A stretch of 64,000 nt of DNA, taken from assembly GCA_002591745.1 (NCBI GenBank), contig PDLQ01000008.1, positions 62,001-126,000 of the forward strand, written 5' to 3'. Origin of the DNA: Lewinellaceae bacterium SD302. Its GTDB lineage: Bacteria; Bacteroidota; Bacteroidia; Chitinophagales; Saprospiraceae. The notes beneath the pieces were generated by a model. It ran no database searches. It saw nothing but the letters and a program-made list of their open reading frames with translations, and was not told where the DNA came from. The position numbers were made by a program, and so were the translations under genes. Of the stretch, positions 1,563 through 62,931 are shown one piece after another; positions within the stretch are counted from its first letter, which is position 1; the number at the start of each line of letters is the position of its first letter.

Positions 1563-1572
1563 TGCTACTTTG
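1563..1572 (-). repeat. Dispersed 10-mer CAAAGTAGCA, single intergenic copy
   Basis: An exact copy, reading GGACTATCAAAGTAGCAGTG on the minus strand, between the Fur-family gene and the operator. It matches the extended consensus GRCTnnCAAAGTAGCARTG seen throughout the window. Confidence 0.85.
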
Positions 1573-1645
1573 ATAGTCCAAAAAATAAAAACTCCGGGCT
1601 TACCCGAGTTCCATTCCAGGTAATAATTAAAAAATAAATCAACAT

Positions 1646-1668
1646 TAATTGCAACATTGTCGCAATTA
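1646..1668. promoter_or_regulatory. 23-bp palindromic operator, probable Fur-family site
   Basis: The arms TAATTGC and GCAATTA flank ACA-T-TGT around a centre at 1657; 10 of 11 base pairs are self-complementary. It lies between the -33 and -7 elements of the promoter reading towards the lipoprotein gene, where a bound repressor would block RNA polymerase. Size and symmetry fit Fur-family boxes. Assignment to the neighbouring regulator is inferred from position. Confidence 0.65.
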
Positions 1669-1679
1669 GAATAGTTTTG
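1649..1679 (+). promoter_or_regulatory. Bacteroidota-type promoter of the lipoprotein/TonB-receptor pair
   Basis: TAGTTTTG at 1672-1679 matches the -7 consensus TAnnTTTG exactly. TTG at 1649-1651, 20 bp upstream, is a fitting -33 element. Transcription would begin near 1686, giving a leader of about 20 nt before the ATG at 1705. Confidence 0.6.
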
Positions 1680-1704
1680 TACTCGAATTCAAAATACCAT
1701 TCTA

Positions 1705-2271
1705 ATGAAAACAACGAAATACTCACTCTTAAGTTTGCTTTTTCTGGGCTTAGTCTTTTTCTCCGGCTGTGATGATGATGACGACGGAGGCGGCCCAACT
1801 GAAGAAGAAGTAATTACTGATGTAACTCTCTCCCTGACCCCGATCAGCGGTGGAGACGTAGTAAGCCTGACCTTCGTAGACCGTGACGGCGACGGCGGTG
1901 ATGACCCTGTCATTACCGGTGGTACGTTACAAGCCGGTACTACTTACGATGGTTCTATCCAATTCTTCAACCGCTCCGGCGATGAAGACGAGAACGTGAC
2001 CCTGGAAATCGAGGAAGAAGACGATGAACACCAGGTTTTCTACGAATTTGATGGTGTTGCCGCTACGGCTGCTTACGTTGATCAAGATGGAGCAGGCAAT
2101 CCCGTTGGGCTGTTAACTCTGGTTGTTGCCGCAGCCGCCACCGAAGGAACCCTGACCGTCACTCTGCGCCACGAGCCCGCCAAGGACGCCGCAGGTGTAA
2201 GTGAAGGTCTTATTGCGAACGCGGGCGGTGAAACCGACGTTGAAGTCGTATTCCCCCTCACCATAGAATAA
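1705..2271 (+). CDS. Acidic lipoprotein paired with a TonB receptor
   Basis: A 188-residue lipoprotein: signal peptide with lipobox FFSGC (lipidated Cys22) followed by a run of Asp residues (DDDDD), which matches the export signal for surface lipoproteins in Bacteroidota. The mature part is strongly acidic and predicted beta-rich (SLTPISGGDVVSLTFVDRDG), with many Asp/Glu/Gly stretches that could bind cations. No named family is recognised with certainty. It lies 4 bases upstream of the TonB-receptor gene and shares the palindrome-overlapped promoter, so it is probably a surface accessory of that receptor, perhaps a metal or metallophore-binding partner. That role is inferred from context only. 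Confidence 0.85.
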   Translation: MKTTKYSLLSLLFLGLVFFSGCDDDDDGGGPTEEEVITDVTLSLTPISGGDVVSLTFVDRDGDGGDDPVITGGTLQAGTTYDGSIQFFNRSGDEDENVTLEIEEEDDEHQVFYEFDGVAATAAYVDQDGAGNPVGLLTLVVAAAATEGTLTVTLRHEPAKDAAGVSEGLIANAGGETDVEVVFPLTIE

Positions 2272-2275
2272 AAAT

Positions 2276-4588: not shown

Positions 4589-4614
4589 GAATGTCTGAGA
4601 ACCCTCGTAAACCT

Positions 4615-4660
4615 TGCTACTTTGAAGACCAAAGGATATTTTTTTGCTGGCAAAGTAGCA
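4615..4660. repeat. Inverted pair of the CAAAGTAGCA repeat (hairpin)
   Basis: TTGCTACTTTG and CAAAGTAGCAA form an 11-bp perfect stem around a 26-base loop that contains a run of T. It lies in the gap between the convergent TonB-receptor gene and the small membrane-protein gene, so it could serve as a terminator. Exact 10-mer copies are at 4615-4624 and 4651-4660. Confidence 0.85.
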
Positions 4661-4671
4661 ATGCCGGTTGA

Positions 4672-4932: not shown

Positions 4933-4988
4933 AATGAGTGGTTTGGTTATCCCTATACCCGAAAAAAGGGGGAAATGTTCGGCATTGT

Positions 4989-9202: not shown

Positions 9203-9212
9203 CAAAGTAGCA
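9203..9212 (+). repeat. Dispersed 10-mer CAAAGTAGCA, single intergenic copy
   Basis: The context GGACTAACAAAGTAGCAAGG matches the extended consensus. It sits 20 bases after the aroA stop, in the gap before the alpha/beta hydrolase. Confidence 0.85.
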
Positions 9213-11542: not shown

Positions 11543-13996
11543 TTAACGCCGAACTTCAGCACCAAGTTGCCGGGTGAAGCTTTCGATTAAGCGATTTACA
11601 GCTTTATCGACTTCTTTGTCCTTGAGGGTCCGCTCGTTGTTTTCAAAGACAAAGCTCATGGCGTAGCTTTTCTTGTCGGCACCTAGCTGATCATCGTTTT
11701 CGTAGACATCGAAGAGATTGACCTGGGTCAACATTTTTTTCTCGGCCTTATTGGCGACCGTGGCCAATTGTGCGAAGCTTACCTTCTTATCAACCACCAG
11801 TGCCAGATCACGACGGACCGTGGGGTATTTGTTCAACTCCTGTACCTGCAAAGGCTTTTTGGGCAGTACGCGCATGATGTTGTCCCAGTGAAAGTCAGCG
11901 TGGTAAACCTCACCTTTAACACCGATCTCTTTGGCGCGGGTGGTATTCACCTTACCAAAATCCACTAATGGCATCGGCCCGGCTTCGGCGCGTAGTCCGT
12001 AAGCAAATTTATCAGCCGGAGCTTCGCTGGTGCGATAGTTGTGGATGCCCAGACGACGCAGGACCAGCCCCACGGTACTTTTGAGGGTATAGTAACTCAC
12101 GTTACGCTTGCTGCCCTTAACACCATCGTGCCAATTCTCGGCGTGCTTGTGGCCGGTCAGATAAAGCGTCAGGTGATTATTTTCCTGGTAGTTTTCTCCG
12201 TCGAGTCGGTAGCTGCGACCGAATTCGAAAAGACGCAAGTCACTCATCCGCCGGTTCTGGTTGTGGACGATTGCCTCCAGTCCACTCACCAACATATCCG
12301 GACGCATAATGTCGTAAGTGACGTTACTGGTGTTGTTGACGTAGACCAGTCCGTCCACTCGCTCAGCTTCGGGGCCGCCACCATAGTAACGGCTTTCGCT
12401 GAGGCTGAGGGCCATCATTTCAAGGAAGCCGTTGGCACTCAATAGATCACCGATCAGCTCACGGACTTTGTGGGGGTCGGGGCTGGGAGCGACGGTGAGG
12501 GAAGTCGTAATCTCTTGCGGCATCGCTACGTTGTCGAAGCCGTAAATGCGCAGGATTTCCTCGATGACGTCAACCTCGCGGGTTACATCGGATTTATTTG
12601 TCGGCACTGCTACTTTGAAGTCCACCTCATTATCATCGGTGAATTTCATGTCCATCGTTTCCAGGATCGACCGCACTTCTTCGCGGCTGATGTCGATGCC
12701 GGTCAGTTCACGAACGCGTTGGTAACGAACGGTAATCTCCAGCGGCTCGATCGGTGCGGGATAAATATCCAGCAACTCGGAAGTCACCGTGGCTCCAGCG
12801 TACTCCTGCAGGAGCAGGGCGGCCCGCTTCAGGGCATCTACGCAGATATTGGGGTCGCTGCCCTTCTCGAAGACCTTGGCCGCGTCGGTCCGTAAATTGT
12901 GCTTCATGCTACTACGGCGGGTGTAGCCGGCATCGAAATGAGCGGATTCAAGGAAGATGCTGGTCGTGGAATCGGTGACTCCGCTGTTGAGACCACCAAA
13001 AACCCCGGCGATGCACATGGGCTGGTCGTTGCCGTCGCAGATCATGAGGTCATTGGGCAACAATTCGCGCTCCACTTCGTCCAGGGAGAGAAATTTGCTG
13101 CCGGCCGGAAGGGTTTGGACGATGATCTTGCCACCACCGATCTTCTCCAGATCGAAAGCGTGGAGCGGCTGCCCCATTTCGTGGAGAACGTAGTTGGTAA
13201 TGTCCACGACGTTGTTGATGGGACGAACGCCAATGGCTTTGAGGCGGTTTTGCATCCATTCCGGGGCGGGGCCGATCTTGAGGTCTTTGATCGTGAGCCC
13301 GGCGTAGCGAGGGCAGGCTTCCTGATTACGAATTTCAACGGGCAAAGCAGCTTCGTTGCCAGCTTTGAACCCACTCAGGTCGGGGCGTTGTACGCTCTGG
13401 TCGGAGTCGTGATTGATCTTCAGGGCAGCGGCCAGGTCGAAGGCCACTCCTAGATGGTTGGTGGCATCGCTGCGGTTGGGCGTCAGGCCGATCTCGTAGA
13501 CGTAATCGCTTTCCAGTTCGTAAACCTCGGCAGCGGGTTTGCCGACGGGGGTATCGGTTGGAAGGACCATGATGCCATCGTGATCGTCACCTAATCCGAG
13601 TTCGTCTTCCGCACAGATCATGCCCATGCTGACCTGTCCACGAATTTTCCCTTTTTTAATTTTGAAGGGTTCCCCATCCTGGGGATACAGCATGGTGCCA
13701 ACGGTAGCCACCAGTACTTTCTGGCCTTGCGCTACATTGGGTGCACCGCAGACAATTTGTACGGGCTCCTCCCCCCCGCCAAGATCCACCTTGGTCAGGG
13801 ACAAACGGTCAGCATCCGGGTGTTTGCCACATTCGACGACGTGACCGACCACTACCCCGGCCAGGCCTCCGGGAATCGACTCAACTTCGTCCATTCCTTC
13901 CACTTCCAGACCGGTGCCGGTGAGCACCTGGCCGATGGCTTCGGGACTAAGATCTAATGGGAGGTACTGGCGCAGCCAGTTCAGTGACGTTTTCAT
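11543..13996 (-). CDS. pheT: Phenylalanyl-tRNA synthetase beta subunit
   Basis: An 817-residue beta subunit of the alpha2-beta2 PheRS. Domains in order: N-terminal MKTSLNWLRQYLP, tRNA-binding OB fold (about 40-150), B3/B4 core with the editing site (about 215-385, RYAGLTIKDLKIGPAPEWMQ), B5 (about 410-480), a catalytic-like core, and the C-terminal anticodon-binding FDX-ACB domain (about 720-817, LNKYPTVRRDLALVVDKKVSF). pheS is not in the window. A coding copy of the 10-mer at 12608-12617 is read as F-K-V-A-V. A -7 element lies only 5 bases before the ATG, so the mRNA may be leaderless or nearly so. Confidence 0.97.
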   Translation of the reverse strand: MKTSLNWLRQYLPLDLSPEAIGQVLTGTGLEVEGMDEVESIPGGLAGVVVGHVVECGKHPDADRLSLTKVDLGGGEEPVQIVCGAPNVAQGQKVLVATVGTMLYPQDGEPFKIKKGKIRGQVSMGMICAEDELGLGDDHDGIMVLPTDTPVGKPAAEVYELESDYVYEIGLTPNRSDATNHLGVAFDLAAALKINHDSDQSVQRPDLSGFKAGNEAALPVEIRNQEACPRYAGLTIKDLKIGPAPEWMQNRLKAIGVRPINNVVDITNYVLHEMGQPLHAFDLEKIGGGKIIVQTLPAGSKFLSLDEVERELLPNDLMICDGNDQPMCIAGVFGGLNSGVTDSTTSIFLESAHFDAGYTRRSSMKHNLRTDAAKVFEKGSDPNICVDALKRAALLLQEYAGATVTSELLDIYPAPIEPLEITVRYQRVRELTGIDISREEVRSILETMDMKFTDDNEVDFKVAVPTNKSDVTREVDVIEEILRIYGFDNVAMPQEITTSLTVAPSPDPHKVRELIGDLLSANGFLEMMALSLSESRYYGGGPEAERVDGLVYVNNTSNVTYDIMRPDMLVSGLEAIVHNQNRRMSDLRLFEFGRSYRLDGENYQENNHLTLYLTGHKHAENWHDGVKGSKRNVSYYTLKSTVGLVLRRLGIHNYRTSEAPADKFAYGLRAEAGPMPLVDFGKVNTTRAKEIGVKGEVYHADFHWDNIMRVLPKKPLQVQELNKYPTVRRDLALVVDKKVSFAQLATVANKAEKKMLTQVNLFDVYENDDQLGADKKSYAMSFVFENNERTLKDKEVDKAVNRLIESFTRQLGAEVRR

Positions 13997-15559: not shown

Positions 15560-15569
15560 TGCTACTTTG
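15560..15569 (-). repeat. Dispersed 10-mer CAAAGTAGCA, single intergenic copy
   Basis: The minus-strand context is GAGCTGGCAAAGTAGCAGCG. It lies 15 bases after the SpoIIM-family stop, in the 288-base gap 15296-15583, which otherwise shows no gene or RNA. Confidence 0.85.
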
Positions 15570-19068: not shown

Positions 19069-19117
19069 TGCTACTTTGTTAGTAAACCTCTAATGATTTT
19101 TTGACTTCAAAGTAGCA
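19069..19117. repeat. Inverted pair of the CAAAGTAGCA repeat
   Basis: TTGCTACTTTG and CAAAGTAGCAA form 11-bp arms around a 28-base AT-rich loop containing TTTTTTG. Exact 10-mers are at 19069-19078 and 19108-19117. It has the same layout as the pair at 4615-4660. Confidence 0.85.
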
Positions 19118-19193: not shown

Positions 19194-20786
19194 ATGACTA
19201 TTGGACGGATTCCTGGATATTTTCAAAGCGTTGATCTGCCTGCCAAAGCGTTATTGGTATGGTTTAACGCTGCTATTTTTCTTTTTACCATAGCGTCGCC
19301 TACAATAACCCAAGCCCAATCTGGTTTCATCCAGTCCTACTGTTTTGAGAATGAATCTTCTTTGCAATTCAATGATCTGATCTTACAGAACGACACTCTA
19401 GTGATGTACGGTAGGGCTAGGCATCCAATGACAGGACAAATTGGAATCTACTTTTCTAAAATGGATACTTTAGGAAATATACTGATCGAAACAACTCACT
19501 ACGATAGTACGGGAGATGACTATTTCTTCGATATCAATGCAGATCTAATCATCTGCTCCGATGGCGGTTACGCAATTGCAGGGAAAACTTTTTTTCGAGG
19601 TTATTCTATTATCATTAAATTCAATTACGATGGTTTCTTAGATTTTGTAAAAGAACATCCAGATGATAGCGTTTTACATACGACTCACTGGAATCTCATT
19701 GAAACACAATCGGGTTACATGACTGTTGGTGCCAAACAACAAATGTCGGATGGGAAATGGGATGCTTTTGTGATGCGTACAGATGAAAGTGGCAACAAGA
19801 TTTGGGAAACTAGCTATGGGCAGCAAGAAGTATGGGAAGTTTTCAAGGAAATACTATCAATCAGCGAGAATGAATTTTTGGTTTCTGGCGCAGCTGGCTT
19901 AAGCACTTCTCAAGTTCAAAACCCTAGCCAGCAATGGTCACAAAATAGAGTATTGAAGATCGATTCTACGGGTAATATTTCTGAAGTGTGGGAAGGTGAA
20001 ATCAAGTTCTATCCAACGTCAGTTGGAATGAGCAAATTATATCCCACTATAGATGAAAATTGGTTCTCAATCGGTTCAAATAACATGATCATAGAAGGAT
20101 ATGATCTTCCAGTGAATCAGGTTGAAGTCACGAAACGGAACGAAAGTTTTGAGGCCATTGAAACCATTACGATTCTTGATCACACTTCATCAAAAAACAT
20201 TCTCACCGACCTCACCCCCGGCCTAAATCAAGAATGGGTCACAGTCGGCCGCTATCTCCACGAAGTTCCTGGCCCACCCACCTACTATTATGATGCCGGT
20301 CTTATCGCCAAGGTGAATGAAGCCGGTGATCTATTGTGGACCCGCACGGATACGCTCTTTTACGACGCGAGCGGTTACTCGGACCACTACCTCGGCGGCG
20401 TAGTCGTCCTCCCCAGCGGCAGCATCATCGCCTGCGGGCAGGTGAACAGTGACATTCCCGCCCCCGGCAAATCCTACGGCTGGCTAATTAAAGTAGATAA
20501 GGACGGCTGCATCGAGCCCGGCTGCAACCCCACCAGCAGTAGCAGTAGCTTACTGGATGGTACGGCTTTTGAAGTATTTCCAAATCCGCTGAGCGATCAG
20601 TTGAATGTCAGCGGCCCTGGCCGATTCGATCTTGAACTATTGGATAGTAATGGTCGGTTACTGCAAAGTAGCAATGGTAATGTCGACCAAGCCAGCTTTA
20701 ACCTAAGAACCTACCCAACGGGCAATTACTATCTACGGATTAAGGTCGGTAGTCGCTGGGCGGTTCGCAAGGTGGTGAAGCAGTGA
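19194..20786 (+). CDS. T9SS-secreted protein with type A sorting domain
   Basis: A 530-residue exported protein. The ATG at 19194 gives a basic start and a signal peptide (ALLVWFNAAIFLFTIASPTITQAQS). Repeats of about 50 residues (GGYAIAGKTFFRGYSIIIKF, SGYMTVGAKQQMSDGKWDAF) suggest a beta-propeller. The C-terminal 73 residues (from FEVFPNPLSDQLNV to RKVVKQ) are a type A T9SS sorting domain, removed on secretion. The first two thirds (to about 20190) are visibly richer in A+T than the last third and the neighbours, which suggests that the variable part was replaced while the sorting end was kept. A 10-mer copy at 20664-20673 is read as L-Q-S-S-N. Function unknown. Confidence 0.85.
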   Translation: MTIGRIPGYFQSVDLPAKALLVWFNAAIFLFTIASPTITQAQSGFIQSYCFENESSLQFNDLILQNDTLVMYGRARHPMTGQIGIYFSKMDTLGNILIETTHYDSTGDDYFFDINADLIICSDGGYAIAGKTFFRGYSIIIKFNYDGFLDFVKEHPDDSVLHTTHWNLIETQSGYMTVGAKQQMSDGKWDAFVMRTDESGNKIWETSYGQQEVWEVFKEILSISENEFLVSGAAGLSTSQVQNPSQQWSQNRVLKIDSTGNISEVWEGEIKFYPTSVGMSKLYPTIDENWFSIGSNNMIIEGYDLPVNQVEVTKRNESFEAIETITILDHTSSKNILTDLTPGLNQEWVTVGRYLHEVPGPPTYYYDAGLIAKVNEAGDLLWTRTDTLFYDASGYSDHYLGGVVVLPSGSIIACGQVNSDIPAPGKSYGWLIKVDKDGCIEPGCNPTSSSSSLLDGTAFEVFPNPLSDQLNVSGPGRFDLELLDSNGRLLQSSNGNVDQASFNLRTYPTGNYYLRIKVGSRWAVRKVVKQ

Positions 20787-20954: not shown

Positions 20955-23900
20955 ATGTTTCGCTATCTACCTCCCACCTCACTCTTCCTCCTCTTCGCTG
21001 CTATCTGTCTGCTGACCTTCAGTTCCTGCAATCAGCGACAGGCTACTATCAAAGGCCGCTCCTCCGTACGCGTGCTCTTTTTGCCCCAGGGCGGACCGGA
21101 AAAAGGATTCTTTGCCGATGCCTTGCAAGCCCGGTTCGATACCCTGTCTACCGACGGCCGCCAATTGGAAACCCACTACAACTACCGATTGCTGAACGAA
21201 GACAGCATCCACGCTTTCAGCGCCATCATCATCGCCGATCCGCTGCTGGATAGCCTGGCCATACACCAGCGGGTGGCCCTGCAACGCTACGCCGAAGCCG
21301 GAGGTGGATTATTACTGGCCGATACCACCACCTTGCCGCCCTACGAATGGCACTGGTACGCCACCCAGCAAATGGCCGGCGATACTGGCTTGGCCAATCT
21401 GGAACTCTGGCGCAAACCGCAAGCCGGAAAACTGGACCTGGACCGCTTGATCGGCGACAATAAATACGACCTCAGCCGTTGTACCACCCCGCCGGCACCC
21501 AGCGACGAACGCTTCAACCTCACCGTACTGGATGACAATATTTACGAGCCGATGCAGCTGGAGATACTGCCCTTTGGCGAGGTGTTGTTCCTCGAACGGC
21601 GTGGACTGATGAAACTCTACGACCCGGCCGTTGGCAAAACCAAAGTCGTTCACGATTTCAACGTTTGTATCGAAGGAAACTACGAGGACGGTCTCCACGG
21701 CATCGCCCTGGACCCCGGCTACGGCGTAGATAACCATTGGCTGTATCTCTACTATTCACCCGCCCCTTGCGACAGCCTGGACCAACTGCTCAGCCGCTTC
21801 GAGTTCAAGGGAGGCGTACTGGATACGGCCAGCGAGAAAATCATGCTGCGCGTACGCGTACAAAGAGAAAGTTGCTGCCACAGCGGCGGGGCGGTAGAAT
21901 TTGGCCCGGACGGACTGCTGTACCTCAGCACCGGCGACAATACCAGCAGCAAGGAAAGCAACGGCTACAGCCCGCTGGACGAACGTCCCGGTCGCGGTCC
22001 TTACGACGCTCAGAAAGGTTCCAGTAATACCCACGATCTGCGCGGAAAAATACTGCGCATTCGACCCGAAGCCGACGGCACCTATTCCATCCCGGAAGGC
22101 AATCTCTTTGCCGCCGATGGCAGTAATGGGCGGCCCGAAATCTTCGCCATGGGCTGCCGCAACCCCTTCCGCATCTCCATTGATCGCCAGACCAATTATC
22201 TTTACTGGGGCGACGTGGGGCCGGACGTCGGCCAGGCCGGACGCTACGGCCCCGAAAGCTTCGACGAGTGGAACCAGGCGCGGGAAGCCGGCAACTTCGG
22301 CTGGCCCTATTTCGTGGGCGATAACTTTGCTTACCCCCGTCGTGATTTCACTACGGATGAGGTCGGTGAGTTGTATGATCCCGAAGCCCCCGTCAATGAA
22401 TCACCCAACAACTACGGAAACCGGGAACTGCCACCGGCCCGGGCCCCGCTGATGTGGTATCCCTACGGCAACAGCGCAGAATTTCCTCAACTGGGCAGCG
22501 GCTCCCGCTCGGCCATGGCCGGCCCCTGGTACTACCGCGATGGGCAGCTGTTCATGACCAGTTCCGATTTCCCGGATTACTACGAAGGCAAATGGTTCAT
22601 CTACGAATGGGCCAGATCGTGGATCAAAGTGGTCACTTTCGATGCGGCCCACGAGAAAATGGTGCAGATCGAAGACTTCTACCCCAGCGGTAAGATCAGT
22701 AAGCCCATCGATCTTAAGTTTGGCCGCGACGGGGCGCTCTATATGCTCGAATACGGCAACGATTATTTCCTCAACAACCCCGACGCCCGTTTGGTACGCA
22801 TCAGTTTCAGTGCGGGCAACCGGACACCGGTAGCCAAAATGGAGGCTTCGGAACTGGCCGGGGGCATTCCCTTTCAGCCAATCTTCGACGCCGGTAAAAG
22901 CTTCGATCCCGACCCCAATGACAGTCTGAGTTTCAGTTGGTATGTAAACGGGAAAATGGCCGATGAAACCGGTCCCGTCTTCAGTCCTGTGCTCCGGATT
23001 GCGGGGGTTAATCGGGTGACTGCCAAAGTAGCAGACCTCAGAGGAGCCACGAGCGAAATGACCCTGGATGTACTGGTGGGTAATACTCCTCCGAGCTTAG
23101 CTCTAAGAAGCCAGGGTAACCAGAGTTTTCTGTTGCCCGGCGTTACCGCCCTCGATTATGAATTGTTACTGGACGATCCCGAAGATCGCCGGGCCGGAGG
23201 TCTGGACGAAAGCCGGGCTATGGTGAGCGCGGCACCGATTTCCGACCCCGCGCTACTCCGCGAAATCAGGGAAGGGAAAGCCAGTTTACCCGCCGGACCG
23301 CTGGAGTACATCGGTGGAGCCAAACTGATTAAAAAATCCGATTGTCTGAGTTGCCATAAGGAGCGTAGTGAGAACGTCGGCCCCGCTTATCTGGACGTCG
23401 CCGAGCGTTACCCGGACACCGAGGCGAACGTAAAGACCATTGCCGGTAAGATCATCACCGGCGGAAACGGAAACTGGGGGGAACGCCTCATGTCCGGACA
23501 CCCCAACCTTTCCGAGGAAGACGCAGAACTGATGGTACGTTACATCTTATCCCTTAATGACGTGAGTCGCTATCCTTTGAAGGGAAAGGCGCCCATTGAG
23601 CCAAACGAAGGAATGGCCGGTTTCGTACTCTCGGCCAGTTACCAGGACGGCGGTGCGGGTGAAATACCGGCTCAGACCGGCCGCAAGACAGTGGTGCTGC
23701 GCCCCGCCCGTCTGGAAGCGGAAACGGCCGCGGACGAACTGTACCGGGCCCACGTACCTCAGGGTGGAGAGCACCACGCTTTCAAGGTGGTCACCTACCG
23801 GCCCGGCGGCTATCTGAAAATGAGCAAAATTGACTTACGTGGGTTAAAGAACCTTAAACTCGGTATCCACCCGTACGCCCCCGGTGAACTATCGGTTCGG

Positions 23901-24265: not shown

Positions 24266-26824
24266 ATGATTCGTTCATACTTGCTTTTGCTCAGCTTCTG
24301 CTGTGCCACCTTGGGCCTGTTTGCCCAAACGACCACTCTTCCACTTACCGATCTCGGGCTGAACTTCAGCACCGATGACCGCATGGATCAATTTGAAGAA
24401 TACCGCATTGTCCGTCTGGATATAGATCCATTGTACCGTCTCTGGGAAGCCCCCGAAGATCACATCGCCTTTACGCTGGAAGACAATGGTCAGCAATTCA
24501 ATTTTGAACTCGACCGTCTGGACCTCCGCCGCCCTGGCTACACACTGACCAGCGGCAGCCGTGATGACCGATCCTTTGAAATTCACCCACGTTTGCCCGC
24601 AGCTCAGTTTCGGGGGTCAATGAATGGTACGGACGCGCCAGCCATTTTCACCATTGATGAAAATTTCGTGCTCGGCCACTGGACGGTTGACGGTGAGCGT
24701 TTTTACCTGGAGCCCCTCTGGCGCTTTGCCGACGGTGTAGCGACAGATGTTTACATCCTCTACGGTGAAAACGGTATCGACCCCTACATTGGCGAATGTG
24801 GTGCTCACGGTGAAGATTTTAATGCACCCGACCCTGAGCCCATTGGCAGTGGACAAGGTCGCTCGGCGGTCGACGGCGAGTGTATCGAAGTGGAAATTGC
24901 GCTGGCTTCCGACTTTGAACATTACCAGCAATTGAACAGTAGTGCCACCCAGGTAGAGAACTTTATGCTCAACTCCCTGGCTTTGGTACAGACCAATTAC
25001 GATAGCCAGATCGGTGATGAAGAATTCGACGACGAGCTTAACTTTTTCGTGACGGATACTTACATCGCTACCTCCAACGCCAGCGACCCCTGGACCAATG
25101 ATACCGACCCGGAGATTTTACTGCCGGACTTCCGTTCCTGGGGAAATAATGGTGGCTTCAACGCTGCTTACGATGTGGCAACGCTCTGGAGTGGCCGTGA
25201 TTTTGACGGCTCGACGGTCGGCTTGGCCTACGTCGGGGTGATTTGCTCCGGCTCTCGTTACAATACTAATGAAAATTTTTCCACCAACTCCGCAAGTATC
25301 CGGGTGCTGTGGGCGCATGAATTGGGACACAACTTTTCGTCCAGTCACGATGATACTCCACCTCCCTACACCACGATCATGGCTCCCTCGGTTAACATTA
25401 CCGATACCTGGTCACAACAATCCCGCGACGCCATTAACGCTCACTACCAGAGCCGGTCCTGCCTTAGCAACTGTGCTCAGAGTGCCCCGACAACAGCCTT
25501 CTCGGTTTCTGAAAGCCAGGTTTGCCCCGGCAGCCAGATCAATTTCGTGAACCAGACCTCAGGTTCCGTTTCGAGTTTTCAATGGTCGTTTCCCGGAGGA
25601 AATCCATCTTCTTCCACTGAGCTCAATCCAGCGGTTACCTATAATAATGCAGGCAGTTACATTGCTACTTTGACAGCCACCAACGCCGCCGGAAGTACTT
25701 CCGCTCAGGAGTTCATTAACGTATCCCCCGGTAATACCAATTCGGTATTTTTCGAAGATTTTGAGAATGGTCTGGGAGGTGTACAGATTTCAAATCCCGA
25801 TAATGGCACTACCTGGACGACCCGGCAAATAACCGGCAATGGTAGTTCGCAGGCTGCTTATCTCAACAACTACAATTACGAAGCTCAGGGTCAGGTAGAC
25901 GGTTTGGTACTACCTGCTCAGGATATGCTGGCCAACACTAATTTACGTCTAAGTTTCGAGTACGCTTACGCCCGTTACAACGCCACCTTTAAAGATCAGC
26001 TCCGGGTGCGGGTAGTCACTTCCAATGGTTCTACGGATGTATTTTTAGGTGACGAAGACGGCAGCGGAAATTTTGCTACGGACAATGACCAGACTAGCTT
26101 CTTCAGCCCTTCCGGTGCCCAGGATTGGTGCTTTAATGGTCCTCAGTGCGTTGATCTCGACCTGAGTGCCTTCAATGGCTTCACTTCCGTGCAGGTCTTC
26201 ATCGAGAACATCAACGGTTATGGTAACAGCCTCTACGTTGACAACGTGGAACTGATTTCCACCTGTTCTCCTTCCAATCCCTTGCCTGTGGAATGGCTGA
26301 GTTTCTGGGCCGAGGCGCGCCCACGTGCCGCTTACCTGAACTGGGCAGTCGAGCAAGACGCAGCTCACGCCGGCTTTTACGTAGAAAGGGCACTGGCCGA
26401 TGATCCCGCTAAATGGGATCAAATCGATTTCGTTGAGCGCTACGGGGATAACGGTACTGCGGTGGATTACGCCTACGAAGATTTTAGCGTCCGCCCCGGC
26501 GGAGCTTACCTCTATCGCCTCCGCCAGTTGGATGTAGATGGTAGCGAAGATATTTCCGTGATCCGCCCCGTGAACTTCACTGGTAAGGACCGTGAAGTCG
26601 AAGTCTGGCCCAACCCCAGCCAGGGCAACCTTAATCTGGTCACCGGCTATGCAACCGGAAACTATCAATTACTGGATCTGAACGGCCGCGTAATCAGCAG
26701 CGGCCTTATCGCTACTACCCTCACCCAAATACAGCTGCACGATCTGGCGGCCGGCGTTTACTGGCTACGGGTAACTGGTGCTACTGAAGGTCAGGTACAG
26801 ACGGTTAAAGTGGTCCGGCAATAA
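24266..26824 (+). CDS. Secreted reprolysin-like metallopeptidase with PKD and T9SS domains
   Basis: An 852-residue secreted protease. Signal peptide MIRSYLLLLSFCCATLGLFAQ, a propeptide-like region to about 210, then a metzincin domain with HELGHNFSSSH at 351-361 (zinc ligands His351, His355, His361; Glu352 catalytic), as in the M12B reprolysin-like family. A PKD domain follows (about 407-490), then a jelly-roll region (about 495-670), a linker with PLPVEWLSFWAEARP and a type A T9SS sorting domain (about 776-852, VWPNPSQGNL to VKVVRQ). A 10-mer copy at 25663-25672 is read as I-A-T-L. The ATG at 24266 opens the signal peptide. A strong terminator lies 17 bases after the stop. Confidence 0.92.
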   Translation: MIRSYLLLLSFCCATLGLFAQTTTLPLTDLGLNFSTDDRMDQFEEYRIVRLDIDPLYRLWEAPEDHIAFTLEDNGQQFNFELDRLDLRRPGYTLTSGSRDDRSFEIHPRLPAAQFRGSMNGTDAPAIFTIDENFVLGHWTVDGERFYLEPLWRFADGVATDVYILYGENGIDPYIGECGAHGEDFNAPDPEPIGSGQGRSAVDGECIEVEIALASDFEHYQQLNSSATQVENFMLNSLALVQTNYDSQIGDEEFDDELNFFVTDTYIATSNASDPWTNDTDPEILLPDFRSWGNNGGFNAAYDVATLWSGRDFDGSTVGLAYVGVICSGSRYNTNENFSTNSASIRVLWAHELGHNFSSSHDDTPPPYTTIMAPSVNITDTWSQQSRDAINAHYQSRSCLSNCAQSAPTTAFSVSESQVCPGSQINFVNQTSGSVSSFQWSFPGGNPSSSTELNPAVTYNNAGSYIATLTATNAAGSTSAQEFINVSPGNTNSVFFEDFENGLGGVQISNPDNGTTWTTRQITGNGSSQAAYLNNYNYEAQGQVDGLVLPAQDMLANTNLRLSFEYAYARYNATFKDQLRVRVVTSNGSTDVFLGDEDGSGNFATDNDQTSFFSPSGAQDWCFNGPQCVDLDLSAFNGFTSVQVFIENINGYGNSLYVDNVELISTCSPSNPLPVEWLSFWAEARPRAAYLNWAVEQDAAHAGFYVERALADDPAKWDQIDFVERYGDNGTAVDYAYEDFSVRPGGAYLYRLRQLDVDGSEDISVIRPVNFTGKDREVEVWPNPSQGNLNLVTGYATGNYQLLDLNGRVISSGLIATTLTQIQLHDLAAGVYWLRVTGATEGQVQTVKVVRQ

Positions 26825-28766: not shown

Positions 28767-28873
28767 TTTTGGCTTCAAAGTAGCAGTGGTTAAAGTTTAG
28801 CTCGTCCGACGAACCATTTTCGATCCGCACGTTTCGGCGGGCGAACTAAAACACTGCTACTTTGAAGCCAAAA
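28767..28873. repeat. 107-bp hairpin element built on the CAAAGTAGCA repeat
   Basis: The outer arms are 22-bp perfect inverted repeats (28767-28788 and 28852-28873), each containing GGCTTCAAAGTAGCAGTG. The inner part continues as an imperfect stem (TTTAGCTCGTCCGACGAA against TTCGGCGGGCGAACTAAA). The element fills the gap between the start of the M23 gene and the stop of the YfcC gene. 10-mer copies are at 28776-28785 and 28855-28864. Confidence 0.9.
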
Positions 28874-39256: not shown

Positions 39257-40462
39257 CTATTCAATATCAATCATTTTAAACGGTTCCCAACTGGCTCCCT
39301 CTACCAGGGCTTTTCGGTAAGCCAGGTGCACCCGGTGTATTTCCGTATTCATTTGCCGGCAGGTAGAGACCATCACGTCGTTATGACCGCGAATAGTCGC
39401 CATGTCTACGTAGCGGTAGGTGCGGGAAGTATGACGGTTGCCACTCTGGAACATTGCATCTACCATCAGGGGATAGACCCCCATGCGCTGGTAATCTTTG
39501 GCAATACCGAAAGCAATGCCCTTACAGTTCCTTTCCTTCTGAAATTTGAGGCGGTATAAAAACCTCGGCAGATTGAATAAATTCAGTTTTCCGTCCAGTC
39601 CATGAAGAAAACAATTCAGGTCCGGGATAAGGCCGGCCATACCGACGGGCTCATCGTCTTTATTATAGGCCAGGCAGGTGAGATGAGGATCCAGAATAGG
39701 TTTCATGGCCTGAAAAGCCGGATAAATGTCCTCTCCGCTCAGAGGTTTGAAGTAAGGATTGTGGTTGAAAGCTACATTATAGGCAGCGGCAAAGTCATCG
39801 GCATCGCGGCGCAGTGTTTTCTTGGTGATCTGCCGGGTGTAAAGCCCGTAACGTTCCCGTACGCGGGCGGCCAGTTTTCCCAGACGTTCGCCCGGAAATT
39901 CGGATACGACCCCGCGCATAGTCAGACATTGCTCGTGGGGCTGGTAGCCACGGTCTTCAAAAAAGCGCTGATAATAGGCCGGGTTATAGGTTTCCTGGTA
40001 GATCGGGCGATAGCGACCGTGCGTCAGCAGTCCCCAAAATTTATCGCGTTCACCGAAATTGATCGGTCCGTCTACGGCCTCCATGCCCTGATCGCGGAGC
40101 CAGTTTTCAGCCGCCTCAAAGAGTAGTTCGGCAACCTTATCGTCATCAATACTCTCGAAAAAGCCAAGGCCGCCAACTGGTAGTGTCATTTCTTCGTTGC
40201 GCTTACCATCAATAAAAGCAGCGATACGACCAACATACTTTCCCTCTTTTCTGACCAACCAGAGCTGGCTCGGCCCGTCTTTGTAAGCACCGTTTTTCTC
40301 GGAGAAGATATCCTGAATATCCTGACGGAGCGGGGCTACAAAATTCTCATCCGTAGCATATATGAGCTGCTGGACGTCGTGAAAATCCTTCCAGACGGAA
40401 GAGGTTAGCGCGACGGCTTCACCGGCACTGCTACTTTGGTAGTCAAGATAAATGAGGTTCAT
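39257..40462 (-). CDS. GNAT-like acyltransferase-fold protein
   Basis: A 401-residue cytoplasmic protein. The segment FVAPLRQDIQDIFSEKNGAYKDGPSQLWLVRKEGKYVGRIAAFID is the usual start of a Bacteroidota family with a GNAT fold; GPINFGERDKFWGLL, YNPAYYQRFFEDRGY, ILDPHLTCLAYNKDDEPVGMAGLIPDLN and KGIAFGIAKDYQRMGVYPLMVDAM follow in family order. The acyl-CoA-binding-type turn is QRMGVYP. Substrate unknown. The N-terminus (MNLIYLDYQSSSAGEA) includes a translated copy of the 10-mer (40429-40438); no other in-frame start is available nearby. Confidence 0.82.
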   Translation of the reverse strand: MNLIYLDYQSSSAGEAVALTSSVWKDFHDVQQLIYATDENFVAPLRQDIQDIFSEKNGAYKDGPSQLWLVRKEGKYVGRIAAFIDGKRNEEMTLPVGGLGFFESIDDDKVAELLFEAAENWLRDQGMEAVDGPINFGERDKFWGLLTHGRYRPIYQETYNPAYYQRFFEDRGYQPHEQCLTMRGVVSEFPGERLGKLAARVRERYGLYTRQITKKTLRRDADDFAAAYNVAFNHNPYFKPLSGEDIYPAFQAMKPILDPHLTCLAYNKDDEPVGMAGLIPDLNCFLHGLDGKLNLFNLPRFLYRLKFQKERNCKGIAFGIAKDYQRMGVYPLMVDAMFQSGNRHTSRTYRYVDMATIRGHNDVMVSTCRQMNTEIHRVHLAYRKALVEGASWEPFKMIDIE

Positions 40463-40560
40463 AGCAATGGTCTAATGATCTAATGACAGAATGATAGAAT
40501 GAGCTAATGACAGAATGATATAATGCAGCAATAACTTAATTGGGTGACTTCAAAGTAGCA
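40463..40560. repeat. Tandem AATGA spacer and a CAAAGTAGCA copy
   Basis: CTAATGACAGAATGATAGAA and its near copy are repeated head to tail with a 24-base period (from 40480 and 40504). An exact 10-mer follows at 40551-40560 (context GACTTCAAAGTAGCAAAGG), inverted with respect to the copy at 40429 inside the GNAT-like gene. No promoter could be assigned with confidence. Confidence 0.75.
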
Positions 40561-48560: not shown

Positions 48561-48861
48561 CAAAGTAGCAGTAGAGTTGTTCGGACATAACTCATTGATA
48601 ATCAGTGGACCTTTTCTGAGCCGAATTGCATTTCAAAAATCACAAAAATTCAAGTTGCTGATAATGAGAACGTTATAATTTTATAAAACTTCAATGCCAC
48701 TCATTGTATATTCGCATAACTTACTGATAATCAATCCGAACAACTCTAGTGATTAGGAATTAGTGCGATGATTAGGTCACGATAATCTCTGACAGCCTAT
48801 ATCTCAATATTCGCAACTATTCCGCTAGCCTTTTTGACAAGTTTTAAACACTGCTACTTTG
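48561..48861. repeat. Inverted CAAAGTAGCA pair interrupted by an insertion
   Basis: The left arm GGCTAACAAAGTAGCAGT (10-mer at 48561-48570) and right arm ACTGCTACTTTGCTAGTC (10-mer at 48852-48861) face each other 281 bases apart. In other loci such pairs are 26 to 112 bases apart; here the MITE-like element at 48573-48747 starts directly after the left arm. The rest of the 566-base gap to mutY shows no gene. Confidence 0.8.
48573..48747. mobile_element. Second MITE-like element (about 175 bp)
   Basis: The terminal inverted repeats AGAGTTGTTCGGA (48573-48585) and TCCGAACAACTCT (48735-48747) are perfect over 13 bp. They are flanked by AGT on both sides, or by TA if the outer A belongs to the duplication. 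Inside, two direct copies of a CATAACTnAnTGATAATCA motif lie near each end (48586 and 48716). It has no coding sequence and is AT-rich. It is unrelated in sequence to the 155-bp family. Confidence 0.75.
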
Positions 48862-54066: not shown

Positions 54067-54960
54067 TTAATCCAACACTGCTACTTTGTTAGTCCGAAAA
54101 AGTGGAACCAAGTTCCAATCTTTAAGTTCAAGCTGGGTCCTGGGCCAATCTTTCGTGAGGCCGAGCATGAAACCGCCACCGCCGGCCCCACATAGTTTAA
54201 GGCGATGATGACTCCCCCGCCAAAGTGGTTGCACCGCCGGAGGTATAAATTTAGGTACGCCAGCTAACTGTGCCTCACTAAGTTTGGCGAAGGAATGGCA
54301 TAAGGCTGGTCGGTCACCCTCGATTAACGCAGAAATACAGTCGTCGGCCCATTGCATCCACCCCGTTCGTATGGTTTGCTGCCACTTGAGGTCCTCGTCA
54401 AAATGTCGGGTAAAGTAGTCAATGAGAGGAGCTGACTTCCGGGGCAGGCGGGTGTCTAAGAGAAAGAAGTCCCTGGCCCAGTCGGCCGGAAGTTCAGTTA
54501 TATCCAGACCCCGATCGGATAAGATTACCGGGCGATCCAGATAACTGATCAGCGGATCGGTACCGGAACTGCTGCCGTGATAAAAGCTTTCCATTTCAGC
54601 CAGCCTATGGCGCAGCTCCATCGGCTCCAAGGACCTGGCGACATCATTGCCGTAACGTTGCCAGATGGCTGCGCAGACCACACCGCTGCTCCCGACTCCA
54701 TAACCGTGGGGGACGTTACCCATTAACCGCCAGCCTTTTTCCAAATCCTTTTTCAGTAGACTAATCTGCAGGAATTTACCAACCCTCTTTTTCTGTAAAA
54801 ACCAAACGAATTCCTTTAATCGTGCATCTGGTTTGGCCGACCGCTTCAAGGTCCACTGCAAGCCGAAAGCGGGGCAGGGTACGGCCAGCGCCCGGCCACC
54901 ACGTAAAACAGTATGCTCTCCGAACAGGAGGACTTTTGCTGGATAAGTTGAGCGAAACAT
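54067..54960 (-). CDS. Mevalonate kinase-like GHMP kinase
   Basis: A 297-residue GHMP kinase. YPAKVLLFGEHTVLRGGRALAVP is the N-terminal signature of mevalonate kinases; the phosphate loop is GNVPHGYGVGSSGVVCAA, and the C-terminal motif is KLCGAGGGGFMLGL. It would phosphorylate mevalonate for isoprenoid synthesis, as in Bacteroidota that use the mevalonate pathway; no other pathway gene is visible here, so the exact substrate is inferred. The gene carries the 10-mer at its last codons (54079-54088, N-K-V-A-V-L-D), and another copy lies just before its start (54978-54987), in inverted orientation. Confidence 0.85.
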   Translation of the reverse strand: MFRSTYPAKVLLFGEHTVLRGGRALAVPCPAFGLQWTLKRSAKPDARLKEFVWFLQKKRVGKFLQISLLKKDLEKGWRLMGNVPHGYGVGSSGVVCAAIWQRYGNDVARSLEPMELRHRLAEMESFYHGSSSGTDPLISYLDRPVILSDRGLDITELPADWARDFFLLDTRLPRKSAPLIDYFTRHFDEDLKWQQTIRTGWMQWADDCISALIEGDRPALCHSFAKLSEAQLAGVPKFIPPAVQPLWRGSHHRLKLCGAGGGGFMLGLTKDWPRTQLELKDWNLVPLFRTNKVAVLD

Positions 54961-54977: not shown

Positions 54978-54987
54978 CAAAGTAGCA
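54978..54987 (+). repeat. Dispersed 10-mer CAAAGTAGCA, single intergenic copy
   Basis: The context GGTTAGCAAAGTAGCAAGG lies in the 72-base gap between the CYTH-protein gene and the mevalonate kinase-like gene. Confidence 0.85.
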
Positions 54988-60289: not shown

Positions 60290-60435
60290 CGAATATATAA
60301 GGTATATCTCTGCTACCGGGGCTAAACCAGAACCTGGAACGGCTCCCGGCAGTTTTAAAGGGTAAAACAATATCCGCTTCGGGGGCGGACTTCCCCGCTA
60401 AAACGGGACGGACCCGCTTTAGCGGCGCAAAGGTA
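60290..60435 (-). promoter_or_regulatory. Structured leader and promoter of rpsA
   Basis: TACCTTTG (60435-60428, minus) with a TTG 20 bp upstream is a good promoter. The transcript starts almost at once with the hairpin CCGCTAAAGCGGG...CCCGTTTTAGCGG (60395-60425), followed by a second GC-rich stem near 60374-60390. The leader is about 130 nt. S1 represses its own synthesis in enterobacteria through leader structure; a similar role here is inference. Confidence 0.55.
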
Positions 60436-60446
60436 AGAATATTTCT

Positions 60447-60454
60447 TAGCTTTG
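60447..60454 (+). promoter_or_regulatory. -7 promoter element of the T9SS-protein gene
   Basis: TAGCTTTG matches TAnnTTTG, about 27 bases before the ATG at 60481. It is divergent from the rpsA promoter. Confidence 0.45.
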
Positions 60455-60480
60455 ACAAGCCATTTTAATTCAGCAACCTT

Positions 60481-61242: not shown

Positions 61243-61271
61243 CAAGCTGGCATCTCAAGCGTTTTATCAGG

Positions 61272-62057
61272 GTGCGTATCCTTCCATTTCTGTTGCTTTT
61301 GGCCGTGCAGAACAGCTTAGCTGCCCAAGACACTTTGTTTAACATTAACGGAGTTGTAGATTTCCGGGTGGATCCCATCGGCCAACTATTTTACCTACGG
61401 GAAGACGGCAGCCTGGCCAGACGTGATGTCGCCGCGGACAGTACTTATACTTTCAATGACAATTTACTCGGGCCCATCAGTTCGATCGACGTTAGTAACC
61501 CCTTCGGGCCAATCCTCTATTTTGAGGACTATTTTCGCTTACTCCTGCTGGACCGCACTTTGAATGAGGTTAGTTCTCTGGACTTACAAAGTAGCAGTGT
61601 TTTACAAGCCGCCGGAATCTTTGCCCGCAATTTTAATGACCAAGTCTGGATTTTCGACGAGGGAGACTTTCGTCTGAAGCTATTGGCCCCCGGAGGCAAA
61701 GTAGTTAAGCAAAGCGATGATCTTAGACGACGTATGGGGCTGAACCGAAGTCCGAAAGCTTTATTTGCGGCCGGCAATTTGCTATACGTCCATTATCCTG
61801 AACGGGGAATCGCGGTATTTTCAAATTACGGTCGCTTCCTGCGCTGGGAGTTAGAAGACCTGAAAGTCGAAACTCTCCAATTCGATGGACGGACCCTCTT
61901 CTGGCGAGATGGTCCATTTGCTTATCAATGGTCCTTTTCCGGCCCGGCCCGCTCCATCAAACTTCCTTTGATGCTCGCGGATACTGAGGGTACAATCTGG
62001 CCTCTACGCGGTGGATGGCTCTATTTAAGCAACAGTCAGTTGTTTTATTTAAAATAA
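61272..62057 (+). CDS. Exported propeller-like protein of unknown function
   Basis: A 261-residue protein with a signal peptide (MRILPFLLLLAVQNSLAAQ) starting at a GTG. Regularly spaced strands with aromatic and Asp residues (VDFRVDPIGQLFYLREDGSLARRD, ISSIDVSNPFGPILYFEDYFRLLLLD, AGNLLYVHYPERGIAVFSNYGRFLRW) suggest a five- to six-bladed propeller. No named family is recognised. A 10-mer copy at 61587-61596 is read as L-Q-S-S-S-V; a variant (GGCAAAGTAGTTAAG) lies at 61695. Confidence 0.75.
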   Translation: MRILPFLLLLAVQNSLAAQDTLFNINGVVDFRVDPIGQLFYLREDGSLARRDVAADSTYTFNDNLLGPISSIDVSNPFGPILYFEDYFRLLLLDRTLNEVSSLDLQSSSVLQAAGIFARNFNDQVWIFDEGDFRLKLLAPGGKVVKQSDDLRRRMGLNRSPKALFAAGNLLYVHYPERGIAVFSNYGRFLRWELEDLKVETLQFDGRTLFWRDGPFAYQWSFSGPARSIKLPLMLADTEGTIWPLRGGWLYLSNSQLFYLK

Positions 62058-62090
62058 TTTGTTTTAAAATTTATATTTCCCTTATCTTTG
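62058..62090 (+). promoter_or_regulatory. Promoter of the glucosaminidase gene
   Basis: TTTG at 62058-62061 and TATCTTTG at 62083-62090 are spaced 21 bp, a good Bacteroidota -33/-7 pair. The leader to the ATG at 62180 is about 85 nt. Confidence 0.6.
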
Positions 62091-62179
62091 TTGTGCGCCC
62101 TTACTCCTGCGTCAGGGCCTTACTGACTGATACCGGACCCACTCATAACGTTTATTATTCGTCCGAAAGGTTGCAAAAA

Positions 62180-62911
62180 ATGAAGACTATTGTACACGAC
62201 TTCCTGGCCCTGGCCGTCAGGCATTGGTTACGTATTGGAGTATTACTGGTTTTGCTTTTTATCATCAGTAAAAAGCAAATTGATCTTAACATTCAGTTTG
62301 GGAAACCAACTGGTCCCATACATCAATCCAGCCCGCCATTGAAGCCCGCAGGGGAAATTCTCCCCGCCCATGAGGAGCCGACGGTATATACTCAAATTGA
62401 ACCAACGGAAGACAGTTGGTTACAGAAGATGAACATCCTCGGTAGTGGTGACCACGCTGAACTAAGCCTGGAACTCAAACAGGTAGAAGAGCGCATAATC
62501 CGGGCATTCCTGGATCGATTCGCAGAGTTGGCGCGTACGGAACAGCGCAAGTTCGGGGTGCCGGCCAGCATTACCCTGGCCAACGCCCTGCTACACAGTC
62601 GGGGCGGTACCGCTGCCGCTTCCCTGACCGCTAATAACTATTTTCAGCTCGGTTGTACTTCCGACTGGATCGGCCCCACCAAAAGTTTGAACGGCTTATG
62701 CTACCGTGAGTACGAAAATGCCTGGACCAGTTTTCGCGATCACAGCTTGTTTGTCACCACCGGTCAATATGCTCCTTTAACCCGCCTCGGTAGTCAGGAC
62801 TATCACGGCTGGTCCAAAGGATTGGAAGCGCTGGGATACAACGATACGGATGATTTAGGACAGCAACTGGAGCAGGTCATAGAGCAATGGCAACTGTACC
62901 GCTTTGATTAA
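62180..62911 (+). CDS. Glucosaminidase-domain protein (GH73-like)
   Basis: A 243-residue membrane-anchored protein: a short cytoplasmic start, one helix (WLRIGVLLVLLFIISKK), a Pro-rich linker, then a glucosaminidase domain (about 105-240) with RKFGVPASITLANALLHSRGG (the catalytic-Glu position of GH73 reads differently here: His/Ser in NALLHSRGG), ANNYFQLGC and CYREYENAWTSFRDHSLFV. It would cut or bind peptidoglycan glycan strands in the periplasm. The unusual residue at the usual Glu position leaves activity uncertain. The ATG at 62180 follows a promoter and leader. Confidence 0.85.
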   Translation: MKTIVHDFLALAVRHWLRIGVLLVLLFIISKKQIDLNIQFGKPTGPIHQSSPPLKPAGEILPAHEEPTVYTQIEPTEDSWLQKMNILGSGDHAELSLELKQVEERIIRAFLDRFAELARTEQRKFGVPASITLANALLHSRGGTAAASLTANNYFQLGCTSDWIGPTKSLNGLCYREYENAWTSFRDHSLFVTTGQYAPLTRLGSQDYHGWSKGLEALGYNDTDDLGQQLEQVIEQWQLYRFD

Positions 62912-62921
62912 AAGCCAGCAT

Positions 62922-62931
62922 TGCTACTTTG
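62922..62931 (-). repeat. Dispersed 10-mer CAAAGTAGCA, single intergenic copy
   Basis: The minus-strand context is GATTAGCAAAGTAGCAATGC. It lies 11 bases after the glucosaminidase stop, before the cold-shock-like gene. Confidence 0.85.

Follow-up and report, generated by a model that had tools for sequence, protein, structure and literature searches.

The 10-base word CAAAGTAGCA, first noticed in the window (the whole 64-kb stretch of DNA analysed here), looks like a self-recognition signal for DNA handling rather than an ordinary repeat, with copies dispersed over the entire genome and spaced according to the strand on which they lie. Across a sample of 1.21 Mb of this genome (G000) holding 309 sites, 9 same-strand pairs lie less than 2 kb apart against 79 expected, and 105 opposite-strand pairs against the same expectation of 79. 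The inverted pairs described in the earlier note are real but were understated, as neighbours within 2 kb are almost always on opposite strands, and the observation as a whole is confirmed and larger than first noted. The genome of 5.48 Mb contains 1,344 exact copies of CAAAGTAGCA (669 forward and 675 reverse, or approximately one per 4.1 kb), a count far from random when compared with the 16 copies (7 + 9) of the reversed-word control in the same genome, and the copies extend genome-wide rather than being confined to the segment in which they were noticed. The extended word GRCTNNCAAAGTAGCARTG occurs 402 times genome-wide, with a control count of 0.

Within the window, all 22 copies originally reported were recovered at their positions, and 100 dinucleotide shuffles of the window gave a mean of 0.10 copies and a largest value of 1. 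CAAAGTAGCA is the most frequent 10-mer of the window, and each of the other seven 10-mers listed, at 7–11 copies, overlaps it. Independent gene calls also place 14 of the 22 copies between genes. Three inverted pairs are formed by the intergenic copies at 4615–4624 (−) and 4651–4660 (+), 19069–19078 (−) and 19108–19117 (+), and 28776–28785 (+) and 28855–28864 (−), whilst the copies at 1563–1572 (−) and 48561–48570 (+) directly follow a hairpin-like stretch and a T-run. The remaining intergenic copies lie at 9203–9212 (+), 15560–15569 (−), 40551–40560 (+), 48852–48861 (−), 54978–54987 (+), and 62922–62931 (−). The claim that the word is tolerated inside an essential gene is borne out by the copy at 12608–12617 (−), which sits in pheT (phenylalanyl-tRNA synthetase beta, 11543–13996) and is read within FKVAV. 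Other copies fall in a gene whose product has a C-terminal sorting domain (20664–20673, +), a GSDH/cytochrome c gene (23024–23033, +), a reprolysin-like peptidase gene (25663–25672, −), a formyltransferase gene (33656–33665, +; gene 33561–34142), and a gene with no Pfam match (61587–61596, +). A further copy lies close to the beginning of a gene for a GNAT-domain protein (40429–40438, −), and another towards the 3' end of an ORF with a weak score (54079–54088, −; ORF 54067–54723).

The core is part of a longer motif. Over 117 sites, the full motif spans ~27 bp and runs from a T-rich tract (−12 to −7) through GRCT and two weakly constrained bases to CAAAGTAGCA and RTG; the flanks match those given in the earlier note, with the T-rich tract an addition to them. 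Conservation is confined to about −16 to +19, with only a faint bias beyond that reaches about +29, a far shorter extent than the long conservation of an insertion sequence remnant. Good flanks accompany 61 cores that carry a single mismatch; in 58 of these the mismatch is at core position 10 (28), 4 (24), or 2 (6), with one each at positions 1, 3, and 6, and none at positions 5, 7, 8, and 9. This confinement of mismatches to a few positions points to constraint rather than uniform decay. A conserved hairpin at the word was also considered and rejected, as the partners that TAG would need in a stem are variable.

Placement relative to genes bears on how the copies arose. Although intergenic sequence makes up 12.8% of the DNA, 188 of the 309 copies examined are intergenic, and 150 of 373 examined are coding. 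When coding copies are compared with the congener G147, the word is free of gaps in 10 of 10 comparisons (those at 23024 and 33656 in the window among them), and in five of six comparisons with other congener samples; in the sixth, at 37% identity, a gap of four residues spans the word. For the pheT copy, 17 of the 18 congeners covering the site align through the word without a gap. Several of the gap-free coding comparisons are poorly conserved around the site. Judged from these alignments, most of the compared coding copies look to have arisen in place by base changes. A role in sense or antisense RNA was rejected, with 82 coding copies on the same strand as the gene and 68 on the opposite strand.

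These comparisons also weigh on the suggestion, raised initially by the GTAG within the word, that CAAAGTAGCA is a REP/RAYT or other tiny mobile element that has multiplied. The inverted pairs between genes, the copy number, and the single gapped coding comparison fit such an element, and RAYTs are usually single-copy, as is the one Y1_Tnp match above the cut-off of 23 in this genome, a weak match that may or may not represent a RAYT (28.9 bits, in a 242-aa frame; best in the congeners 98.6). Similar weak Y1_Tnp frames, however, occur in many congeners that lack CAAAGTAGCA, coding copies are mostly free of an indel at the word (though in several the surroundings are poorly conserved), the flanks are graded, and both the large share of copies within genes and the restricted mismatches speak against it. 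A mobile, REP-like origin is unlikely, and multiplication of a small element as the explanation of the word as a whole appears extremely improbable.

The strand-specific spacing also stands out in two further analyses. Permutation of the strand labels (5,000 permutations) gives a mean of 53 and a minimum of 36 same-strand gaps against the 9 observed, and in a logistic point-process fit a strand-specific exclusion gains 183 log units, compared with at most 8 for a strand-blind symmetric exclusion. Spacing along each strand is fairly even (CV 0.60 and 0.53), with about 7.5 kb between marks on each strand of this genome. A neutral origin of this pattern would be deletion between nearby direct repeats, which, with no function involved, would remove same-strand pairs from otherwise ordinary uptake words, and it is indeed direct repeats alone that are missing. 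The depletion is nevertheless still strong at 1–2 kb (6 pairs observed, 39 expected) for imperfect repeats of 20–30 bp, between which deletion at such distances is rare, and such deletions would cost genes, making this origin very unlikely.

Sorted by the sign of GC skew, the copies divide without bias (71/81 and 66/69), and replication-linked polar sites were rejected on that ground. A polar signal for chromosome handling other than uptake or Chi, such as segregation, fork restart, DNA transfer, or nucleoid organisation, would accord with a word that is genome-wide, tied to strand, and spaced fairly evenly along each one. Segregation- or fork-linked signals should, however, show the replication-strand bias that GC skew fails to reveal, and we know of no polar chromosome-handling system with so long and variable a word; we regard such a signal as unlikely.

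A Chi-like site has a comparable standing, being improbable but well short of negligible. Under this explanation, a nuclease of the AddAB/RecBCD type would switch from degradation to recombination on meeting the word from one side, which would require separate copies on the two strands; Chi sites work with a polarity and over distances of kilobases. The density of one per 4.1 kb resembles that of E. coli Chi (60 in 250 kb), and PDDEXK_1 nuclease-family proteins exceed the cut-off in all 21 genomes, with frames of about 1,000–1,150 aa in 20 of the 21, a size we take to be that expected for AddB. Several observations make Chi-like action less likely: the motif of about 27 bp with its flanks is far longer than the 5–8 nt of known Chi sites, the replication-strand bias of E. 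coli Chi (45/15 in the 250-kb stretch tested) is absent here, and E. coli Chi in that stretch shows no same-strand exclusion (21 gaps below 2 kb, permutation mean 18.7). Additionally, the strong intergenic preference of the word speaks against it, as does the presence of the same nuclease family in congeners that carry a different word.

A look at related genomes, as proposed in the earlier note, gave a divided answer: CAAAGTAGCA is enriched in none of the other genomes tested (20 congeners, 395 genomes of the order, and 394 of the phylum), yet a different word, GCACCYGCGNNNGCGCC, is present at 173–1,202 copies in 12 of the 16 congeners in which it was counted. The extended word was found in one of 395 genomes of the phylum draw, namely this genome itself. 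Among the matches listed from a genome-contig collection were at least three copies in one Staphylococcus contig and at least 17 single copies in other records; viral contigs gave 18 single copies, and plasmids no match to one 44-nt copy. In G147, GCACCYGCGNNNGCGCC has a density similar to that of CAAAGTAGCA in this genome and the same exclusion, with 4 same-strand pairs below 2 kb against 59 expected. A gap lies near the site in 11 of 19 GCACCYGCGNNNGCGCC comparisons. The other four of the 16 congeners counted hold 2–34 copies of GCACCYGCGNNNGCGCC, and no word of their own was found for these four. A de novo word search returned no comparable word in 100 kb of G292 and an AT-rich repeat of 8 copies in 100 kb of G068, where the G147 matrix gave 10 matches against 0 controls. 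Candidate relics of GCACCYGCGNNNGCGCC in this genome are few (3 matches above 10 bits against 1 control in the 1.21 Mb, and 5 exact patterns genome-wide against 0 controls). In a pheT tree whose midpoint root serves for drawing only, this genome forms a long branch next to the 18 remaining rows. Since CAAAGTAGCA and GCACCYGCGNNNGCGCC are unrelated, a large change of specificity is demanded.

The two words may also differ in how opposite-strand neighbours face each other. Among opposite-strand pairs 300–2000 bp apart, 45 are convergent and 16 divergent in this genome, favouring facing copies, whilst the congener word in G147 shows the reverse (18 convergent and 40 divergent, in the orientation as used). 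Beside divergent promoters, 46 copies are oriented opposite to the nearest gene and 20 in the same direction, and the pair-facing preference may be linked to this orientation.

The reading that we favour, at slightly below an even chance, is that the word is the binding site of a sequence-reading DNA-handling machine that acts on one strand or in one direction over roughly 2–5 kb. Its most likely role would be to label self DNA that is to be imported and recombined in natural transformation, much as neisserial DUS and Haemophilus USS do, but without a recognised type IV pilus motor. A dedicated protein would recognise the word; a single copy on each strand within its range would suffice, with a second bringing no gain, and copies would accumulate because DNA bearing the word would be preferentially taken up and recombined. 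In Haemophilus, a single strand travels through ComEC, 3' end first (PMC7811141), and passage of this kind could conceivably confine the effect of a word to its own strand. ComEC, one of the components suggested for checking at the outset, is present in this genome, and the family is above the cut-off in all 21 genomes (this genome and its congeners). In contrast, PF00437 (pilus/type II secretion ATPase, PilB/PilT type) gives only partial matches in the 21 genomes, covering at most about 85 of 370 positions at no more than about 25.5 bits; in 11 of the 21 they reach or barely exceed the cut-off of 24.9 bits, with the match in this genome scoring 24.9 bits in a 946-aa frame, and were rejected as pilus ATPases from their length and position. 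With matches this marginal and partial, the known uptake motor seems to be absent. This counts against the favoured reading, as do the large change of specificity between two unrelated words, the four congeners poor in GCACCYGCGNNNGCGCC, and the one coding comparison with a gap.

More broadly, and somewhat more tentatively, the genus may mark each DNA strand separately by a long word to which a polar machine would respond on one strand at a time, with the word differing completely between lineages (CAAAGTAGCA and GCACCYGCGNNNGCGCC) and the spacing rule retained, which would constitute a new class of self-recognition signal needing no type IV pilus. A genus that holds two unrelated words, both showing this strand-specific exclusion in the genomes measured (G000 and G147), would offer a natural experiment on the change of a self-recognition word. 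Furthermore, how far the exclusion reaches and how it depends on strand bear directly and testably on the mechanism, pointing to single-strand or polar action, and this pair count can also be applied to the classic uptake systems.

Of the known systems, REP sequences with their RAYTs share the many copies, inverted pairs, and GTAG letters, but the word here differs in that its coding copies mostly align free of gaps, many copies lie within genes, and no conserved hairpin is present. Chi (RecBCD/AddAB) shares a similar density, a possible polar action, and an AddB-family nuclease, but not the long motif, the lack of replication-strand bias, or, in the 250 kb of E. coli, the exclusion rule. The likeness to uptake sequences drawn in the earlier note stands as regards a dispersed word of more than 1,000 copies, strand balance, a copy in an essential gene, and intergenic preference, and is weakened by pilus ATPase matches that are only marginal and partial. 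As in the DUS of Neisseria and the USS of Pasteurellaceae, copies number over 1,000, are equal between strands, occur in coding and intergenic DNA, are tolerated in essential genes, show no replication-strand bias, and differ between related groups, with a core and flanking T/A-rich tract as in USS. To our knowledge, uptake-type words come only from Neisseriaceae and Pasteurellaceae. Unlike DUS and USS, which occur about once per 1 kb, the word here occurs once per about 4 kb, in a different phylum, with no convincing type IV pilus ATPase, and the words of this genome and its congeners are unrelated to each other. Same-strand neighbours are avoided here and opposite-strand neighbours are not, a contrast drawn with published uptake: USS uptake is independent of orientation (PMC1939737), so that the known system gives no reason to expect a strand-specific exclusion, whereas here the arrangement of the copies, rather than uptake, suggests that orientation matters. 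Given the strand-dependent spacing and the want of a convincing type IV pilus ATPase, we describe the word as DUS/USS-like in its working, but do not class it as a DUS or USS.

All 22 positions at which the earlier note placed the 10-base word CAAAGTAGCA in the window are correct (0.10 expected), and the word is the commonest 10-mer of the window. Its genome-wide count is likewise far from random, with 1,344 copies (669 forward, 675 reverse) in the SD302 assembly (5,478,864 bases, 147 contigs), compared with 16 of the reversed control. The extended form GRCTNNCAAAGTAGCARTG, which includes the flank, has 402 exact copies (control 0), and 1,142 if as many as two mismatches are allowed (6 for the control). 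Outside SD302, GRCTNNCAAAGTAGCARTG with up to two mismatches is not clearly over its control in any of 20 congeners (0–3 versus 0–7) and GRCTNNCAAAGTAGCARTG is absent from a draw of 394 further genomes across the phylum. Among 395 further members of the order, none comes near SD302 in copies of the bare 10-mer, the highest count being 56 in 7.4 Mb (control 15). A Staphylococcus massiliensis contig (L052, L057, L058) holds a self-complementary repeat with CAAAGTAGCATTGCTACTTTG in at least three copies, apparently a distinct repeat that fits the pattern by coincidence. CAAAGTAGCA occurs in 52 papers, of which the 20 listed concern unrelated subjects, going by title and start of abstract, and no description of it was found in full-text searches with coverage mostly of non-subscription journals. 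Searches of the same kind and coverage returned no paper linking a DNA uptake sequence to Bacteroidetes or Bacteroidota, and nothing on natural transformation and competence in Saprospiraceae.

In a profile of 117 exact copies from 450 kb of SD302, the core is preceded by T-rich positions (−12 to −7) and then by G-R-C-T or something near it (−6 to −3), with two loosely chosen bases between G-R-C-T and the core, and is followed by R, a weak T, G, and then Y-T. Farther from the motif there is faint bias alone, out to about +29; the word therefore does not terminate some longer repeat, and the flank conservation over hundreds of bases that the earlier note named as refuting a dispersed signal is not seen. 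At window positions 1563 and 48561, the T-tract of the word doubles as the T-run behind a hairpin-like stretch, with the terminator-like site ending where the word starts. Across 1.21 Mb of SD302 (309 exact copies), good flanks accompany 61 of 152 one-mismatch cores, compared with 0 of 49 in 0.9 Mb of the congener G147. The differing base among these 61 is the tenth core base in 28, the fourth in 24, and the second in 6 (58 of 61). The first, third, and sixth bases account for a single core apiece, whilst the fifth, seventh, eighth, and ninth are never altered. Such a pattern is what the tolerance of a reading protein would leave, rather than neutral decay of word copies.

Over the same 1.21 Mb and 309 copies, 9 same-strand pairs lie less than 2 kb apart, compared with 79 expected, whilst opposite-strand pairs number 105 against 79 expected, the surplus sitting below 300 bp, a range in which copies of either strand prefer intergenic DNA. 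In 5,000 shuffles of the strand labels, same-strand gaps below 2 kb average 53 and never number fewer than 36, compared with the real 9, and a matrix-based set of 373 copies has 13 such gaps against a shuffle mean of 73 and minimum of 53. In a logistic point-process model, letting same-strand neighbours alone count improves the fit by 183 log units, the optimum being domains of 2.5 kb to either side of each copy; symmetric domains blind to strand gain at most 8 log units, and one-sided domains (5′ or 3′) common to both strands at best 91 and 80. Mean spacing is 7.9 kb on the plus strand (CV 0.60) and 7.3 kb on the minus strand (CV 0.53), with no GC-skew bias of the copies (71/81 at positive skew, 66/69 at negative).

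G147 carries a second word, GCACCTGCGGCAGCGCC, which is flanked 5′ by a tract rich in pyrimidines and has no convincing similarity to CAAAGTAGCA. Allowing up to three mismatches, 0.9 Mb holds 237 copies, or one per 3.8 kb, and genes contain 142 of these. Exclusion for the congener word was measured in this one genome, where a matrix-based set (n = 231) has 4 same-strand pairs below 2 kb against 59 expected, and against a mean of 37 and minimum of 23 upon permutation of strand labels. Counted in 16 congeners, with four further congeners outside that draw, GCACCYGCGNNNGCGCC is spread through the genus unevenly, with 1,202 copies in G218, 1,046 in G228, 1,001 in G147, 940 in G079, 895 in G129, 698 in G306, and 589 in G208; 216 in G246, 205 in G276, 202 in G292, 195 in G170, and 173 in G216; and 34 in G068, 26 in G194, 18 in G298, and 2 in G282. 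Controls across the counted genomes are 0–8, and each of 379 other genomes of the same draw holds at most 4 copies. The low counts in G068, G194, G282, and G298 suggest decay or further dialects. SD302 has five exact GCACCYGCGNNNGCGCC copies (reversed control 0), one of which (G000:C126:589-605, on contig C126 of SD302) is possibly a relic of the congener word. Compared with SD302, congener word sites have a gap nearby in 11 of 19 comparisons, and a tree of pheT, encoding phenylalanyl-tRNA synthetase beta, sets SD302 on a long branch next to 18 further rows, its midpoint root serving as a drawing aid. An AT-rich dispersed repeat, ATTTANNATTTA, occurs in 8 copies in 100 kb of G068.

Gene calls by a custom hexamer script, rather than an established gene caller, place 188 of the 309 exact copies in intergenic DNA, though this makes up 12.8% of the 1.21 Mb, and 150 of the 373 matrix-based copies in genes. 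These 150 comprise 82 sense and 68 antisense copies; 113 share one reading frame, and the frame giving sense copies a TAG stop is unused. In pheT the word falls within FKVAVP, with the site covered in 18 of 19 congener loci and gap-free in 17 of the 18; in the exception, G306, a gap of two residues reaches the word's first base. Against 0.9 Mb of G147, the word is gap-free in 10 of 10 coding copies, with a small gap some residues off in 4 and several comparisons poorly conserved near the site; 100-kb samples of four congeners show it gap-free in 5 of 6, with a four-residue gap spanning the word in the other (37% identity). Since most coding comparisons lack a gap at the word, most of the copies compared probably arose by base substitution. 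Of the copies in divergent intergenic regions of SD302, 46 are oriented against the nearest gene and 20 along with it; for the congener word in G147 the figures are 9 and 17. The C-terminal sorting domains encoded in the window fit Bacteroidota.

All 21 genomes (SD302 and congeners) have a ComEC-family match above the family's cut-off. For PF00437, to which the ATPases of type IV pili and type II secretion belong, the matches are all partial (best 24.9 bits in SD302, at most about 25.5 in congeners), and 11 of 21 genomes are flagged as exceeding the 24.9-bit cut-off; judged by how long the matches are, where they lie, and how large the frames are (about 950 aa), they are unlikely to be pilus ATPases. 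Matches to the AddB nuclease family PDDEXK_1 exceed the cut-off in all 21 genomes, 20 of which have them in frames of about 1,000–1,150 aa. A second PDDEXK_1 protein (G000:C83:10661-11338, contig C83 of SD302, 923-aa frame) has similar counterparts in G147, G306, G246, G396, and perhaps G398, and not in most congeners. Y1_Tnp has one SD302 match of 28.9 bits (cut-off 23), a weak candidate for a RAYT that scores far below the congener best of 98.6.

The spacing rule works on each strand independently and is already saturated by a single copy in about 2 kb. It shows no net preference relative to gene transcription or to the replication strand, and two genomes obey it with two unrelated words. 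These features point to a putative reader that would scan DNA with polarity or in single-stranded form. A Chi-like role, in which the word would act as a RecBCD/AddAB site, agrees with this polarity, but is less likely given the motif length, the absent replication-strand bias, and the comparison with E. coli K-12, where 250 kb hold 60 Chi sites (45/15 by strand) with no same-strand exclusion (21 gaps below 2 kb; permutation mean 18.7, 95% range 15–22). DNA import with self-recognition would be the best fit to the dispersal and turnover of the words. Passages of PMC1939737 describe the uptake words of Pasteurellaceae (USS) and Neisseria (DUS) as having no orientation bias around the chromosome, as lying in ORFs in 65% (H. 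influenzae) and 35% (N. gonorrhoeae) of cases, as evenly spaced (Karlin et al., cited therein), and as promoting uptake independently of a copy's orientation or position, with orientation biases inside genes noted in part of PMC2346458. USS occur about every 1 kb, with 23% within 100 bp of another copy, and USS DNA is taken up via a type IV pilus, with ComEC admitting the 3′-leading strand (passages of PMC7811141), whilst the length of conversion fragments matches DUS spacing (in a passage of PMC2397512).
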